Positions 43,201 to 62,962 of a stretch of DNA of 64,000 nt are shown piece after piece. How positions within the stretch are numbered: position 1 is the first letter of the stretch; every line of letters begins with the position of its first letter. The translations under genes were made by a program, and so were the position numbers. The notes under the pieces are model-generated. The model ran no database searches, was not told the DNA's origin, and saw nothing but the letters and a program-made list of their open reading frames with translations. The stretch covers positions 12,778,192-12,842,191 of the forward strand of contig NC_037603.1 in the NCBI RefSeq assembly GCF_003073045.1, written 5' to 3'. Origin of the DNA: Pomacea canaliculata (lineage: Eukaryota > Mollusca > Gastropoda > Architaenioglossa > Ampullariidae).

Positions 43201-46200
43201 GGGCTCAAACTCCATCCCTGCAACTGGTGGTGTCGCGCCTGGTGGGCATAGAAGGTGACCCCTCCGTGTGGGTCACCAACCGAATGCCGAGTGTCAAACA
43301 GATTAGTGCCCCGCACATCGGATGGGAGTTCAAGGCCCTGGGCTTTGACTACCGGAAGCAGATGCTTGTGTGGAGCGAGGCTATGAACAAAAAGATTCAG
43401 GGCTTGTACTTGAATGGGTTCGTATAACCTCTTAAGGTTCTGCTCTCTCTCTGTTGCATCCATACCACTTTCTTTTCTTCATTAGCGGAGTATAACTAGG
43501 GCTGGTTTATGTTTCTTCTAATGCGGGAAGGAACGGGTTCTTATACTGGAATTAAAAAACCCTCCGTTATTAACAGCAGCAGCATTGCCAACAACAGAAA
43601 TAAAAATAAACAACAACTTCCACCAACACCACCAACAACTCCATATAACTACACCTAGCAAAAGAAAGAACAGCAACGACAACTTCTAAATTTTGTCAAA
43701 TAAGATAAACAGCAAGTTGTTGACTCCAATGTCTTTATGGTACATGAATTCTGACTTGCTAGCCTTATATCAATAACAAATTACCAGAGAGCTCTAGACG
43801 CGGTCAAGAACACAAACGCACGTTGCAGGTCGACGGAGACAGTGGACGTGTATACGGGTACATCCTCTGAGGTTCTGGGGCTGGTCGTCGACTGGGTATC
43901 TAGCAACGTCTACTGGTCTGATGGCATCTACAACTGGATCATGATGGCGCCCTTGCGAAAGTCGGGTGGCCAAGACCAGATCTACCGAATCTTGGTGCAA
44001 GAGGGCCTGGACAACCCTCACGGCTTGGCTGTGTATCCCAAGAAGGGGTATGTCTCTACCGCCCACATCCTCTGTGTGGTCTAATGAAATCTCCAGAAAA
44101 AAGATAATTATAACGCTTAATATTTCAATTAACGTATCTTTGGAGGTTTAAAGGTCAAGGGTTGCACCTGCTTGTTGTCAAATAAATTTACAATCTTTCA
44201 AATATTATGTGCTTACTATTTTATCACTGTACCTCTTTTAACTTCTATAGCTTCAGATTTAAAAATCACATTTTACACTTTACGGTTTGATTCTTACTGA
44301 CCTGAACGTTTCCAGATACCTGTTCTTCTCCGACTGGGGCATCAGGCCACGCATTGAAGTCTGCGATCTCCTTGGCAACAACAGACGGACCATAGTTGAC
44401 TCGAACCTTGTGCACCCGAGAGGTCTGGCTTTGGATATGTCTCAGGATCGCATCTTCTGGGTGGACAGCGGTATATACTCTGTGGAAAGTGCCTCGCTGA
44501 ATGGAATGGGCCGCGAAGTTTTCAGAATAGACACCGGGACCAGCTACTACGGTATAGCAGTCCACAAGGTACGCGAGGTGGTCCGATCACTAAATTTGAT
44601 TTCAAAAGTTGAAATGAAAATGATAAAGACATATGTATTATCTGTGGTGTAAAGAATGGAACAAGAATATCTTGCTGCGTGTCTGTGTTGTTGAAGGATG
44701 ACTGTCATTGAAACTGTGTTATTGGTGTTGAAAGTAATACTGTCACCAAAACAACTCTCGATGTTGTTCTATTATGTACAATGATTGTCACAAACCTTTT
44801 TGTGTTTGACACAAACCTTTCTGCTTCTATCTATTTGTTGTAGAACTTTCTCTTCGTTACGGAGCAGTCAAACGGTTTGCTCAAGATTTTCAATCGGGTC
44901 GGACATGTTCCACCTGTCAGCTTCACACTGGGTAACGTGCCCAACAGCATCATCATGTACGATGAAAGTCAACAAGAGGGCAACAGCAGTGAGTCAACCG
45001 AAAAAAATATACAATTCGTTTATCGTTTAATCAGACGTCTTTTTTCTCTGAACCCTCTTCCCTGCAAATTTCCCTCCGTTCTTCGTTTAAGTTCATGTTG
45101 CAATGAGGACATACCTCTCTGTTTGTAACCTTGCACTTAATTTGATGTGTTTGTTTACTGAAACATCCTCTTGTCCCAGGTGCGTGCGATGCAGAAAAGT
45201 GCGCACACATGTGCGTGGATGACCCTCTGACTGGCCCCAAGTGTATTTGTGGCGAAGGTTACGTCCTGTTACCGGACAACAAAGGCTGCAACCGTACGTT
45301 GGACTTAACAGTCTAAATTCACGCCTTAACCAAAAGTAAAGGTCTAGAGACGCTGACTATCGTTCTGATATACACTTTCCTATACTTTTACGATGTTAAG
45401 TCTTCGAAAACTATTTGAAGTATTCTTTTTTTTCTTTTTTTCCGATGAGAAATCTGAAACTAAATATCTACTCTGTCCTTTATATCATCCTGTCTTTGCC
45501 TTAGCAGGGATTCGGGGGGTAGGGGAGGAAGCTATGACAACCAGTGAGACCGTTAGTGTTGGGGACACTGGAGGTGTCGTACACACACAATCACTCGGGT
45601 GTTCTTTCCACCAAAAATAATTTCTGGACGTAAAACGAATATTAACACAAATGTGAAGTACTCAAAGTCCTAGGGTTCACCTTCGACTTTAAGTATTTGA
45701 CTTCTTCTGTCTATCCACTCTTTTCTCTTTTTCTTATCTACCTCCTTTCTCCATCTTTCTTACCCTCTCTTTCTCTCATCTACTTTTTTGTCTTAAAATG
45801 CTACAAACTGATTTATTTACATTTTCTACGTTCTACTTTTATGTCGTGGCGCTCACATCCGTGACAGACAGATAAACAAATCTGTGATAAGCATTTCTTT
45901 AGTATATCCATCGGTATTACAATAAACATATCATCGGCTTAAGTTTGTGTCGATAAACTCATTTCAGCAAGTCACTGAGTCTATAAACATTTCTCTAGTA
46001 CACACATATTTTTGTTTCTTGACGCGTGATTTTTCTTTCAGTCACCAAACATTTTGTGCATCCCTCACACCTGTATGCTATCGGCGAGGCCATCTGCCAG
46101 TACCCTGCCAACATGGCCGACATGTCCCTGGACAACGTCACCTTGACCTCGCAATGCTTCCTGGCGGAACGTTACGGATACCTGGCCTTGACCTTTGACG

Positions 46201-58880: not shown

Positions 58881-59041
58881 TATAAAAGTAAGGAAAGAAG
58901 AAGGACCGGCGCAGATCTTTCATCGGAGTAGACAGGAATGGTTGGAAACATCTAAGGTGAAGAACAGTTGCTGCACGTCTTCTGTCCTCCACTTCTCGCT
59001 TCACTGAACACCGACAACACCGCTCCAGCCAGGTGATCTCA
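58881..59041 (+). promoter_or_regulatory. TATA box and untranslated first exon of the hormone-like gene
   Basis: TATAAAAG at 58881-58888 predicts a start near 58911. The following sequence is non-coding and reaches a donor either at CCAG|GTGATC (59033) or at CTCA|GTAAGA (59042). The coding exon has a matching acceptor (CTGCCCTCGTCAG) four bases before its ATG, so a short leader exon spliced to 59337 fits well. Inferred from signals only. Confidence 0.55.
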
Positions 59042-59340
59042 GTAAGACTATTTTTTTTAATTTTCGAGTAAATAAACTCTGTGCTGTTTAACTTCTAAAA
59101 AAATAAAATAACTAATTTTTTTATAGTAAAGTACATAAAATCATAAGAAACAACATATGAAGACCTTTACTAGATCGACAAGTATTTCTCGCTTTAAATT
59201 ATTTCTGTTAATCAAAATGTTTAGTTGGCACAAGAGGATATTTTATTTATACTAGTGTGCAGCATTGCTCAAAAAGATAAAAACCCTAAAAAAATTCAAT
59301 TTAAAATGAAAGCCTTTATTTTATCTGCCCTCGTCAGAGG

Positions 59341-59645
59341 ATGAGACTCGTGCGGTTGCCGGGTCCCTGTGTCTTGCTGTGCATGACCGTCTTCAGCCAC
59401 ACCTCCATGGCTTCGGGTGAGTGCGTCAAGGCGCACAAGTCCATCCACTTCACGGTGCCCGGGTACATCACGTACCCCATTCATACCAACGAGTGCCGCG
59501 AGACGGTGTCTTCGGTGATCTCCCCTGTCGTGTCGGTCAACGCGTCGCACCTGAGCATGTTCCGCCGGCACTACTCCACGTGCTGCTGCGGCATCGACAA
59601 CACCAGTCTCCATGAGGTACGGCAATCGTTATCCTTCTTTGTGAT

Positions 59646-59740
<95 letters not shown>

Positions 59741-59995
59741 TCATGCATACAGACTATTCTTATTTTGTTATAGGCAGAACTGCTCAGTCTAGATGGCCGT
59801 CCGTCCATCATTCTCCTGTACCGTCGGATTGAAGAGTGTGTCTGCGTCTCCTGCGACGATGTTTCCAGAGTCAGTCGTCGGCTACTTCCGGAAATCGCCG
59901 ATCGCTTCCGATCCAAGCGGCTGCAACTTGCCCGACAGCCATCGCTCGCCACTCGCGGAGGTGCGGAGGCTCTCAGCGACATCCTAGGGATGTGA
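59341..59995 (+). CDS. Secreted cystine-knot protein, divergent glycoprotein hormone alpha-2 (GPA2)-like
   Basis: Two coding exons (59341-59616, 59774-59995) join in phase 0 to 165 aa. The start follows an acceptor by three bases. Residues 1-26 look like a signal peptide (CVLLCMTVFSHTSMASG). The rest follows the GPA2 layout: C28, TVPGY..YPIHTNEC52R, potential N-glycosylation sites N67-A-S and N87-T-S, a Cys cluster C81-C82-C83, and a C-terminal C114-V-C116-V-S-C119, the C-x-C-x-x-C ending of alpha subunits. GPA2 pairs with GPB5 as thyrostimulin and signals through an LGR-type receptor. Oddities: residue 42 is Tyr where the family has Cys, the second Cys of the usual C-x-G-x-C loop is Val56, no Cys lies between 83 and 114, there is an extra Cys in the CC pair, and a basic ~45-residue extension follows the last Cys. 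Either a diverged paralogue with an altered knot, or another cystine-knot family. Gene structure is sound; family call moderate. Confidence 0.7.
59647..59740. repeat. (ATC)n microsatellite inside the hormone-like gene's intron
   Basis: About 31 uninterrupted TCA/ATC units fill 94 of the 157 nt of the intron 59617-59773, from 30 nt after the donor to 33 nt before the exon. The poly-Ser and poly-Met frames across it are artefacts. Confidence 0.97.
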
Positions 59996-60472: not shown

Positions 60473-60478
60473 AATAAA
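60473..60478 (+). terminator. Polyadenylation signal of the hormone-like gene
   Basis: AATAAA lies about 480 nt after the stop codon at 59995, followed by non-coding A-rich sequence. It is the best-placed signal for this gene on the plus strand. Confidence 0.55.
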
Positions 60479-60933
60479 AGTACAGTGAAAATTGAAGAAA
60501 AAAAAGGACTAAATGAACAAACAAATAAGCGAGTTTGTGAGTGAGCGAGAGAATGAGTGACAACCATTACATACCTCAGTAAGATGAAGCAGGGGCGGTA
60601 AGACAGTGATAACAGTCAAGGGGAGACAAGAACGGTAAGAGGTCTCATTTTTGGCTCTAGAGTTGTCGAAAAATAAAAGCATGCAAAATTATCTCGCGAG
60701 TCACGTGCTTTGTTTCCTTTAATTTGTATCATTCGTGTTTGTTGTGCCACAGCTTTGAGAAGGTGTTTACCGAACTCGGAATAACAGGATCATCATGACC
60801 CATGTGGTCACTTTTGCCCTCTCCCTGTCCTCCCGCATCCATTCAAGCACAGCAGCATGCGAGCACACACACATATAAACACACACAAACACACATACAC
60901 ACACATCTATCACACATCAAGCGAAGTCCATCA
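60479..60933. other. Spacer between convergent genes
   Basis: Non-coding, with a CA-rich microsatellite at about 60861-60912. The hormone-like gene (plus) and the glycosyltransferase (minus) converge here. No AATAAA for the minus-strand gene was spotted. Confidence 0.6.
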
Positions 60934-62962
60934 TCAGTCAACAAACGGATGATGCTGTAGTTTTTCGTCGTCACAACTGTCGTCTGATTTGAGGAACCAC
61001 TGGCCAAACGCTTTGAAGCGGATTATTTTCTCCCTCGTGGTCGTCAAGAAGTTGTTGTGTATGGCTTTAGGAGAGGTTCGTCTCCTAAGAATCTTGTTGG
61101 TGTACCATTTGCCGTCGACGACACTCGTGTTGTAATCCACTAAGCCATAGCGAACACCTTCGTAATTCACCTGTAACCCAGAAATGAACTAAAATGAAAA
61201 AAATTAAAATGTACATTAATGAACAAACATTTGTCAGATATTCAAGGTGTGAGCTCCCATTCAAAGGTGTTTGAATTACAAAAATATGAGTTTGAGAAAC
61301 TCACCGCTAGAAGAGCGTTGAGGTACCGCTGTTCATTTTCCTTCTTCGGTGCAGACTCATTGTCTTTCAAGAATTTCATTCTGTCCTCCAAAGAGTGCAT
61401 CTTACGCGTCACTTCCGCCCAGAGAAGGCGCGTGTGCTCTGTGTTCCGAAAATAAATGAATCCTCCGCACATGATTTGGTCCTCTACGGCTGATTTCGAT
61501 CCGACCAAGTCCAACTCTTCTTTGAAAGCCAGCTCAAGGAAATCTGGAACCGGGTTCCTCAGCCAGACAAAATCCGTTTCGAACAGAACGAACGGCAGGT
61601 TACTTTGCACCAGTTCATTGAGAACCTCGGTTCGAAGCACCATCATGCGAACGTAGCCCACAGTGTTGAACGGCAGCTGACCACCGAGACTGAACCGCTG
61701 AGAGTTGATGGTCATGGAACGGACCCCAGGCCATCTCTGGGTGAACTGTGCCAGAGATTGCTTGTCCTCGGCCAACACCAGCAGTCTGTCGTGTAGACCT
61801 TGAAAACGCTTTGTGTGACACATCCAGTTGTACATCAACGGCAGGTAGGCGTGGTTGATGACCGTGACGAGGAGAGGATGCTCGTCTAGCAATTTCTTTG
61901 CTGCACTCGCCACGACTGACAACGAAGGGTCTCGAATGTCAGCTTTGTTCACTGCATCTTGGTAGGGCATTGGATGATCGAAAGAAGACAACAGGAGAAG
62001 CAGATATGAAAAAAAAATATTTAAGGTGTCAGTGATGGATGGCTATAATAAATAGTTAAAAATTCTAACAAAAGAAACATTTTTAATTAAAAAAAATCAA
62101 GGAGAGCTAAAAACAGACTTAGAAAGAAATATGTGATCTTTGATAAAATGTTTTCTTTTAGAACTACTAAATGCTGATTTATCTAAGCTGAACCAGCTAG
62201 TCAGAATCAAAGTTGTTATTTCTTATTTGTAACTTCAGTGGTTATAAATGACTTCAGATACTAAACAAACATACAAATCAGAATGTCCCCAGCAATTTTT
62301 ATCTATGAAATCGCAATTTTTCAGTATAGGGGCACGTCCATAGCCGATAAGCTAAACGTGGCGTTGACAAAATTACGGGGGAGTTTAAAAGTCCACACTG
62401 GGAATATAAATTAACTGACATCTCTAAAGTAGCCATGACAAGTGTAAAGGTCACCAACAAGATGGACTAGAGGTAACAAAGTGCAGGGGAATGTTTATGA
62501 ATCTTTACTGACACGCACGAGTCTTGGAAGAGACAGAAAAAGTAAAGATTGTTCGCGAACCTTTTCATCGCAGGGGAGAGAAGTATTACAGCCACCATGT
62601 ACCTCCATGCCAACACTTCGTGAGAACGACACCCATTCTCTCGCCGACAAAGCTTACTCAACATTCCACAGGTAAGTTTTGCTACTCCACCCCGGCGTTG
62701 AACTAATGTATCTCTATGTTCAGACGTCAGCGTTCAAACCACTCAGCTCCTCCCCTCCCCCAAAGTGTGTGAGAGGGGAAATGGGGGGGAAAGGGAGAGC
62801 ATCCCAACCCTATGTTTGTCGTGTAGTCGGCAGGATCTTTGACTCACCTCCATACCTGCAGTTATTGTGGAAGAGATCCGCCAGGTAGATGACCAGACAC
62901 ATCAAGAGGACAACGGTTATTGCTGGGCAGAGGTGGAGCCGCCTGATCCCCATGTCTGACAT
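60934..62962 (-). CDS. Type II membrane nucleotide-diphospho-sugar transferase
   Basis: Three exons on the minus strand: 62962-62848, 61957-61305 and 61170-60934, joined in phase 1 and phase 0 with GTGAGT donors, giving 334 aa. Residues about 11-31 form a signal anchor (AITVVLLMCLVIYLADLF), typical of Golgi type II enzymes. The body matches the Nucleotid_trans family (Pfam PF03407, as recalled): an opening TVINHAYLPLMYNWMCHTK-like strand, a YVRMMVLRTEVL helix, VLFETDFVWLRNP where the DxD metal site normally lies (here E165-x-D167), then DLVGSK and IMCGGFIYFRNT. It probably transfers a sugar from a nucleotide donor in the Golgi lumen; donor and acceptor cannot be told. The start is the first ATG of the frame before the anchor, with a second ATG three codons on. 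Confidence 0.85.

Follow-up and report, generated by a model that had tools for sequence, protein, structure and literature searches.

A gene that probably encodes a secreted protein was found on contig C14 of the Pomacea canaliculata genome, inside the 64,000-nucleotide stretch of DNA that we analysed (the window, C14:12778192-12842191). The reading of its sequence that we tentatively prefer, at somewhat less than an even chance, is that the gene is complete and specifies a paralogue that has diverged from the cystine-knot hormones, with GPA2 as its most likely origin, and in which the standard knot could not close. The gene consists of two coding exons, 59341-59616 and 59774-59995 on the plus strand, which join into an open frame of 165 residues followed by a stop codon. 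The features of the locus, in window positions, are as follows:

58881 to 58888, plus strand: TATA-box-like TATAAAAG, a possible promoter judged from its letters
58915 to 59032, plus strand: putative 5' UTR exon with an approximate start, its last letters CCAG followed by GTGATC, placed by splice-site inspection
59338 to 59616, plus strand: exon with the start codon at 59341, encoding a likely signal peptide and the stretch of the domain between Cys28 and residue 92, Cys81-83 included
59464 to 59466, plus strand: codon TAC, Tyr42, where GPA2 has its loop-1 cysteine
59500 to 59508, plus strand: codons GAG ACG GTG, Glu54-Thr55-Val56, replacing Gly-x-Cys of the C-x-G-x-C ring motif
59581 to 59589, plus strand: codons of Cys81, Cys82 and Cys83, one cysteine beyond the CC pair of GPA2
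59617 to 59773, plus strand: phase-0 GT-AG intron of 157 bases
59774 to 59995, plus strand: final coding exon, encoding residues 93-165 and the stop, with Ser97, LDG, CVCVSC and a 46-residue tail
59786 to 59788, plus strand: codon AGT, Ser97, at the loop-3 cysteine position
60473 to 60478, plus strand: AATAAA, by pattern a possible polyadenylation signal

The element TATAAAAG lies about 30 bases upstream of a plausible transcript start predicted near 58911-58919. On inspection, an acceptor (...CTCGTCAG) ends at 59337, directly upstream of the first coding exon, and the donor of that exon reads GAG followed by GTACGG at 59617. A second AATAAA with the pattern of a polyadenylation signal occurs at 60672. 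The intron between the coding exons is mostly occupied by a perfect (TCA)31 repeat at 59647-59740. Ten other frames of the window were scanned against Pfam and two of them matched; neighbours recognized by Pfam are a nucleotide-sugar transferase exon (61245-62042, minus strand) and an LDL-receptor class B repeat (44263-44649, plus strand).

Translation of the joined exons gives cysteines at residues 10, 14, 28, 52, 81, 82, 83, 114, 116 and 119. The first two belong to the likely signal peptide (about residues 1-26), leaving eight in the mature protein. The hydrophobic start resembles a signal peptide, and the product is probably secreted. N-glycosylation motifs are present at residues 67 and 87. 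The 46 residues that follow Cys119 carry dibasic sites at 127 and 140, and release of an 11-residue peptide from this tail at the dibasic sites (residues 127-142; 59876-59923) is a speculative possibility.

GPA2, the thyrostimulin alpha subunit, is described in PMC5996578 as carrying ten conserved cysteines. At these positions the candidate keeps seven, replaces three (Tyr42, Val56 and Ser97) and adds Cys81. A preliminary description of this DNA had reported VPG-Tyr42, HTNEC, Cys81-83 and CVCVSC in that order, Tyr42 (TAC) and Val56 (GTG) at positions where GPA2 has cysteines, no cysteine between 83 and 114, and an extra cysteine in the CC pair; each of these was recovered in the 165-residue frame, and alignment placed the two replacements as described. 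It had not listed Ser97 (AGT), the third lost position, or Glu54, which stands where C-x-G-x-C has its glycine. With the CC pair taken as Cys82-83 and replaced positions counted, the candidate's spacings are 14,10,4,26,1,14,17,2,3, compared with 14,10,4,26,1,14,15,2,3 in the canonical GPA2 of the snail (eight of nine intervals equal) and 14,10,4,19,1,14,15,2,3 in PDB 8enb, which we take to be C. elegans GPA2. Compared with the cystine-knot hormone group (GPH, bursicon, BMP antagonists and Norrin), the candidate fits the spacing frame and the CC...CxC order. Since other cystine-knot hormones share several of these spacings, the frame supports membership of the superfamily more than of GPA2 itself.

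Like GPA2 of the snail (contig C8), the fly and C. elegans (GPLA-1), the candidate combines a likely signal peptide with the ten-position spacing frame. It shares T-N-x-C-R around the second knot cysteine with snail and fly GPA2, LDG after the loop-3 position with snail GPA2, and the CxCxxC end with GPA2. It differs from GPA2 in the three replaced cysteines, in the change of the ring Gly to Glu and in the extra Cys81, and its tail after the last cysteine is 46 residues long, whereas that of snail GPA2 has three.

These replacements fall on defined bridges. PMC4079206 describes the six knot cysteines of the superfamily as invariant, and PMC3224965 gives the GPA2 bridges as knot 1-4, 2-5 and 3-6, loop 1-loop 3, and loop 2-C-terminus. 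Mapped on GPA2, the candidate retains cysteines at knot positions 1, 2, 4, 5 and 6 (Cys28, 52, 83, 114 and 116) as well as the pair that joins loop 2 to the tail (Cys82 and Cys119). By position, then, five of the six knot cysteines are present and knot cysteine 3 is Val56; the ring glycine of C-x-G-x-C is missing as well, the candidate having C52-R-E54-T-V56, so that Glu54 and Val56 interrupt the ring of the knot. The loop 1-loop 3 bridge has also lost its two cysteines, to Tyr42 and Ser97. That bridge is reported in PMC3224965 to be missing from vertebrate GPH-alpha, which keeps the full knot; the candidate does not. In C. elegans, the allele gpla-1(ut5) changes a GPA2 glycine to glutamate and reduces body length and width; PMC10319355 describes this glycine as strongly conserved and as having an important part in forming the knot. 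Glu54 is thus the same residue as in this growth-reducing mutant. On our own reading the mutated glycine would be that of the C-x-G-x-C ring; CRGHC holds the one glycine of the worm-like chain 8enb that fits.

Database searches with the candidate protein gave no match in Pfam or among PDB sequences, and the gene was not among the 11 places that PF03045 or the 10 that PF00007 picked out across the genome. True GPA2 proteins also score weakly: Pfam E values were 7.3e-5 for human and 4.3e-5 for fly GPA2 (both provisional sequences) and 4.3e-4 for snail GPA2, and the human protein reached only E 0.044 against PDB. The candidate's lack of a match is therefore weak evidence. A genome scan with PF00236 was silent for the controls too and so says nothing.

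Clear local alignments were obtained with three of 13 cystine-knot proteins, namely Norrin (L024) and GPA2 of the snail and GPA2 of the fly (provisional sequence); for each, none of 1000 full shuffles and one of 1000 cysteine-fixed shuffles scored as well. No clear local alignment was found with the other ten, including human GPA2 (provisional sequence), which was equalled by 470 and 730 of 1000 shuffles. Identity between the candidate and snail GPA2 is 20% in a four-row alignment. An ungapped block of 35 residues from Cys28 was matched by cysteine-fixed shuffles in 0/20000 cases for fly, 32/20000 for snail and 77/20000 for 8enb.

With a snail and fly GPA2 profile the candidate scored 16.4 bits (3/5000 cysteine-fixed shuffles as good), the best other frame of the window, among about 1356 of 30 residues or more, reaching 10.3 bits. 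Profiles of snail, worm and fly and of snail and worm GPA2 gave 16.1 bits (20/10000) and 13.4 bits (47/10000), respectively, again with cysteine-fixed shuffles, and inclusion of the human sequence beside snail and fly gave 7.5 bits (496/5000). A Norrin profile gave 16.9 bits (4/10000 cysteine-fixed shuffles), a gremlin profile 0.0 bits (3274/10000, likewise cysteine-fixed), a profile of L024 with a provisional fly bursicon beta sequence 2.3 bits (798/5000), and a bursicon-alpha profile no reported match. The snail and fly GPA2 profile also gave 16.8 bits to the snail locus L008 and 21.6 bits to human GPB5, and the snail, worm and fly profile 25.5 bits to the bursicon-alpha-like L010. Other branches thus match or exceed the candidate's scores with GPA2 profiles, and the profiles do not set the branches apart. 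The label of GPA2-like in the preliminary description holds as far as a diverged cystine-knot hormone relative with altered cysteines; the narrower assignment to GPA2 is only partly supported, the C-terminal half and, without firm support, the tree being nearer Norrin and the profiles unspecific.

We searched the genome assembly (440,159,624 bases, 24 contigs) for the canonical hormone and its partner. A GPA2 with all ten cysteines lies on the minus strand of C8, two of its exons identified by search; the first exon rests on a script scan and on likeness to the fly protein (provisional sequence), and its match in a later genome search is not independent, as the query contained it. An oyster-like GPB5 query (provisional sequence) detected a GPB5 exon at C8:8632574 (E 4.0e-6), some 36 kb away from the last exon of GPA2, and the same locus contains an earlier GPB5-like exon; a human GPB5 query of the genome returned only a chance-level place (E 0.77). 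At the CxC motif of the GPB5 exon (L044, about 1501-1690; C8:8632574-8632763) the frame apparently shifts by one base. This is likely an assembly error; if real, it would truncate the partner subunit. With canonical GPA2 and GPB5 exons on another contig, the candidate is an extra gene, distant from that locus (C14 versus C8) and, unlike snail GPA2, unlinked to GPB5. The canonical GPA2 that the preliminary description proposed to look for elsewhere in the genome is thus present, separate from the diverged candidate. Its suggestion that the candidate may be losing its old partner GPB5 gains no support, as GPB5 exons lie about 36 kb from canonical GPA2, the last of them with the apparent frameshift.

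A genome self-search with the candidate returned its own two exons and three weak places, and no second copy was found; a snail GPA2 query of the genome did not return the candidate. From these results the candidate appears strongly diverged, with no near copy found. On both strands, the sequences of the three weak places (L003, L004 and L005) resemble chance matches. Other snail cystine-knot loci were named as bursicon alpha, gremlin, SOST, slit and TGF-beta, presumptive names that we read from their sequences. Among further observations, L008 (C5:25433694-25433960) encodes a member of the DAN family (Pfam 2e-11) that has a CTCC motif and ends like bursicon. L026 and L027 (C5:28420157 and 28448900, minus strand) are similar cystine-knot exons about 29 kb apart and probably a tandem pair. 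L033 (C5:22954703-22954795, minus strand) is a short Norrin-like fragment with an internal stop codon (E 0.066), perhaps a piece of a pseudogene or chance. The best PDB match of snail GPA2 (E 1.8e-7) was a chain labelled Bursicon in 8enb, 8end and 8enf; the label looks generic, and the chain is probably C. elegans GPA2.

The strongest alternative, possible if on the unlikely side, is that the gene arose from Norrin (NDP) or from another branch of the cystine-knot hormones and then diverged, and that the GPA2 look of its N-terminal half reflects shared superfamily ancestry. Besides the slightly higher Norrin profile score (16.9 bits, 4/10000, against 16.1 bits, 20/10000, for GPA2) and the equally high scores of other branches with GPA2 profiles, this reading draws on the C-terminal half, whose signal is stronger for Norrin (shuffles as good: snail 0/3000, human 19/3000) than for GPA2 (snail 92/3000, worm 484/3000, fly 954/3000). 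This half resembles Norrin in the Y-R-x-I before the CxCxxC end and, counted by eye, in its spacing. Snail Norrin (L024, C14:15724747) lies on the candidate's contig, about 2.9 Mb away; an initial assignment of L024 as bursicon beta was dropped, since its PDB alignment shows Norrin. In a tree of 15 rows the candidate was placed beside Norrin (94/84, unstarred). Its branch length there is 10, however, which leaves its place unsure, and a clade of candidate and GPA2 was not rejected (p-AU 0.33). The N-terminal half matches GPA2 (shuffles as good: fly 0/3000, snail 38/3000, worm 369/3000) and gave no signal against Norrin (971 and 2218/3000), although the snail Norrin row of the tree has no first half and starts only at the NVLLARC exon. 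No exon upstream of that one was found within about 8.7 kb.

Gene structure bears on the same question. In snail Norrin an acceptor-like site precedes NVLLARC, and the frame is open from that point up to the stop; the candidate is uninterrupted at the place, before VLLARC, where that exon begins; its intron falls in the following loop, where Norrin has none. It also lacks the CxCC and CxGxC motifs of Norrin. Canonical snail GPA2, like the candidate, has a phase-0 intron in the loop after the CC pair, but the two sites are close and not identical, that of GPA2 being two codons nearer the pair; GPA2 also has a further phase-1 intron, which the candidate is without, and the candidate has no intron between the first two positions. 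As far as exon layout can indicate, gene structure leans to GPA2, and we consider an origin from GPA2 more likely than one from Norrin.

Less probable is that the gene is a decaying copy of GPA2 or of another cystine-knot hormone, under relaxed or no selection, so that its losses are degeneration and not redesign. The losses do strike knot cysteines described as invariant in PMC4079206, Cys116 is left without its normal mate, and the intron is mostly microsatellite. Against this stand the 165 open codons and usable splice sites, a frame that stayed open in only 0.74% of 5000 base shuffles, and a GC content of 0.75 at third codon positions (0.56 and 0.49 at the first and second). The losses also amount to one bridge pair and the ring Cys together with the ring Gly, and the number of mature cysteines is still even. 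A codon-usage score of 46.1 was reached by none of 5000 base shuffles and by two of 4000 random stretches, drawn from the same window. Training of the score used 2012 codons, of which a single long open frame supplied about half. An antisense frame exceeds the candidate's (50.4 versus 46.1), so the score does not single out the strand. If the gene is only decaying, its interest is small.

It is quite improbable that the gene encodes an unrelated cysteine-rich secreted protein that fell into the cystine-knot frame by chance; the missing Pfam and PDB matches and the 20% identity to snail GPA2 would suit such an origin, and the shuffle tests and the spacing match speak against it. A mosaic of a GPA2-derived first part and a Norrin-derived last part is barely credible: the N-terminal half does match GPA2 and the C-terminal half Norrin, but both signals are weak, and since the best Norrin alignment starts at about Arg75, within the first coding exon, simple exon shuffling does not explain it.

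If the gene is a GPA2-derived hormone paralogue, as we prefer, its eight mature cysteines could form four bridges. Cys28-Cys83, Cys52-Cys114 and Cys82-Cys119 would retain their old pairing, and Cys116, partnerless with no cysteine at 56, would bond the spare Cys81. A protein built in this way, having neither a threaded ring nor a loop 1-loop 3 bridge, would not serve as the alpha subunit of GPB5; it may work by itself or join a different partner, a free ligand and a binding competitor being two conceivable roles, and the thyrostimulin role would stay with the canonical GPA2/GPB5 pair on C8. The rewired disulfides and independent action suggested in the preliminary description would agree with such an arrangement. 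The full proposal, of a working and selected GPH-alpha paralogue that naturally lacks the knot, has four re-paired bridges with Cys81 taking Cys116, and has left GPA2/GPB5 to become a lone signal or a decoy, must be considered unlikely as a complete account. Among the matches listed in a literature search, no title concerned a GPA2 paralogue without knot cysteines, which does not show that none is in print; searches limited to Pomacea, for GPA2, for neuropeptides with bursicon and for glycoprotein hormones, found no papers.

Were the candidate confirmed as a natural member of the family without the six-cysteine knot, it would mean that the hormone scaffold can persist while the knot is given up. 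It would also allow one to test directly whether GPA2-type subunits can act without GPB5.
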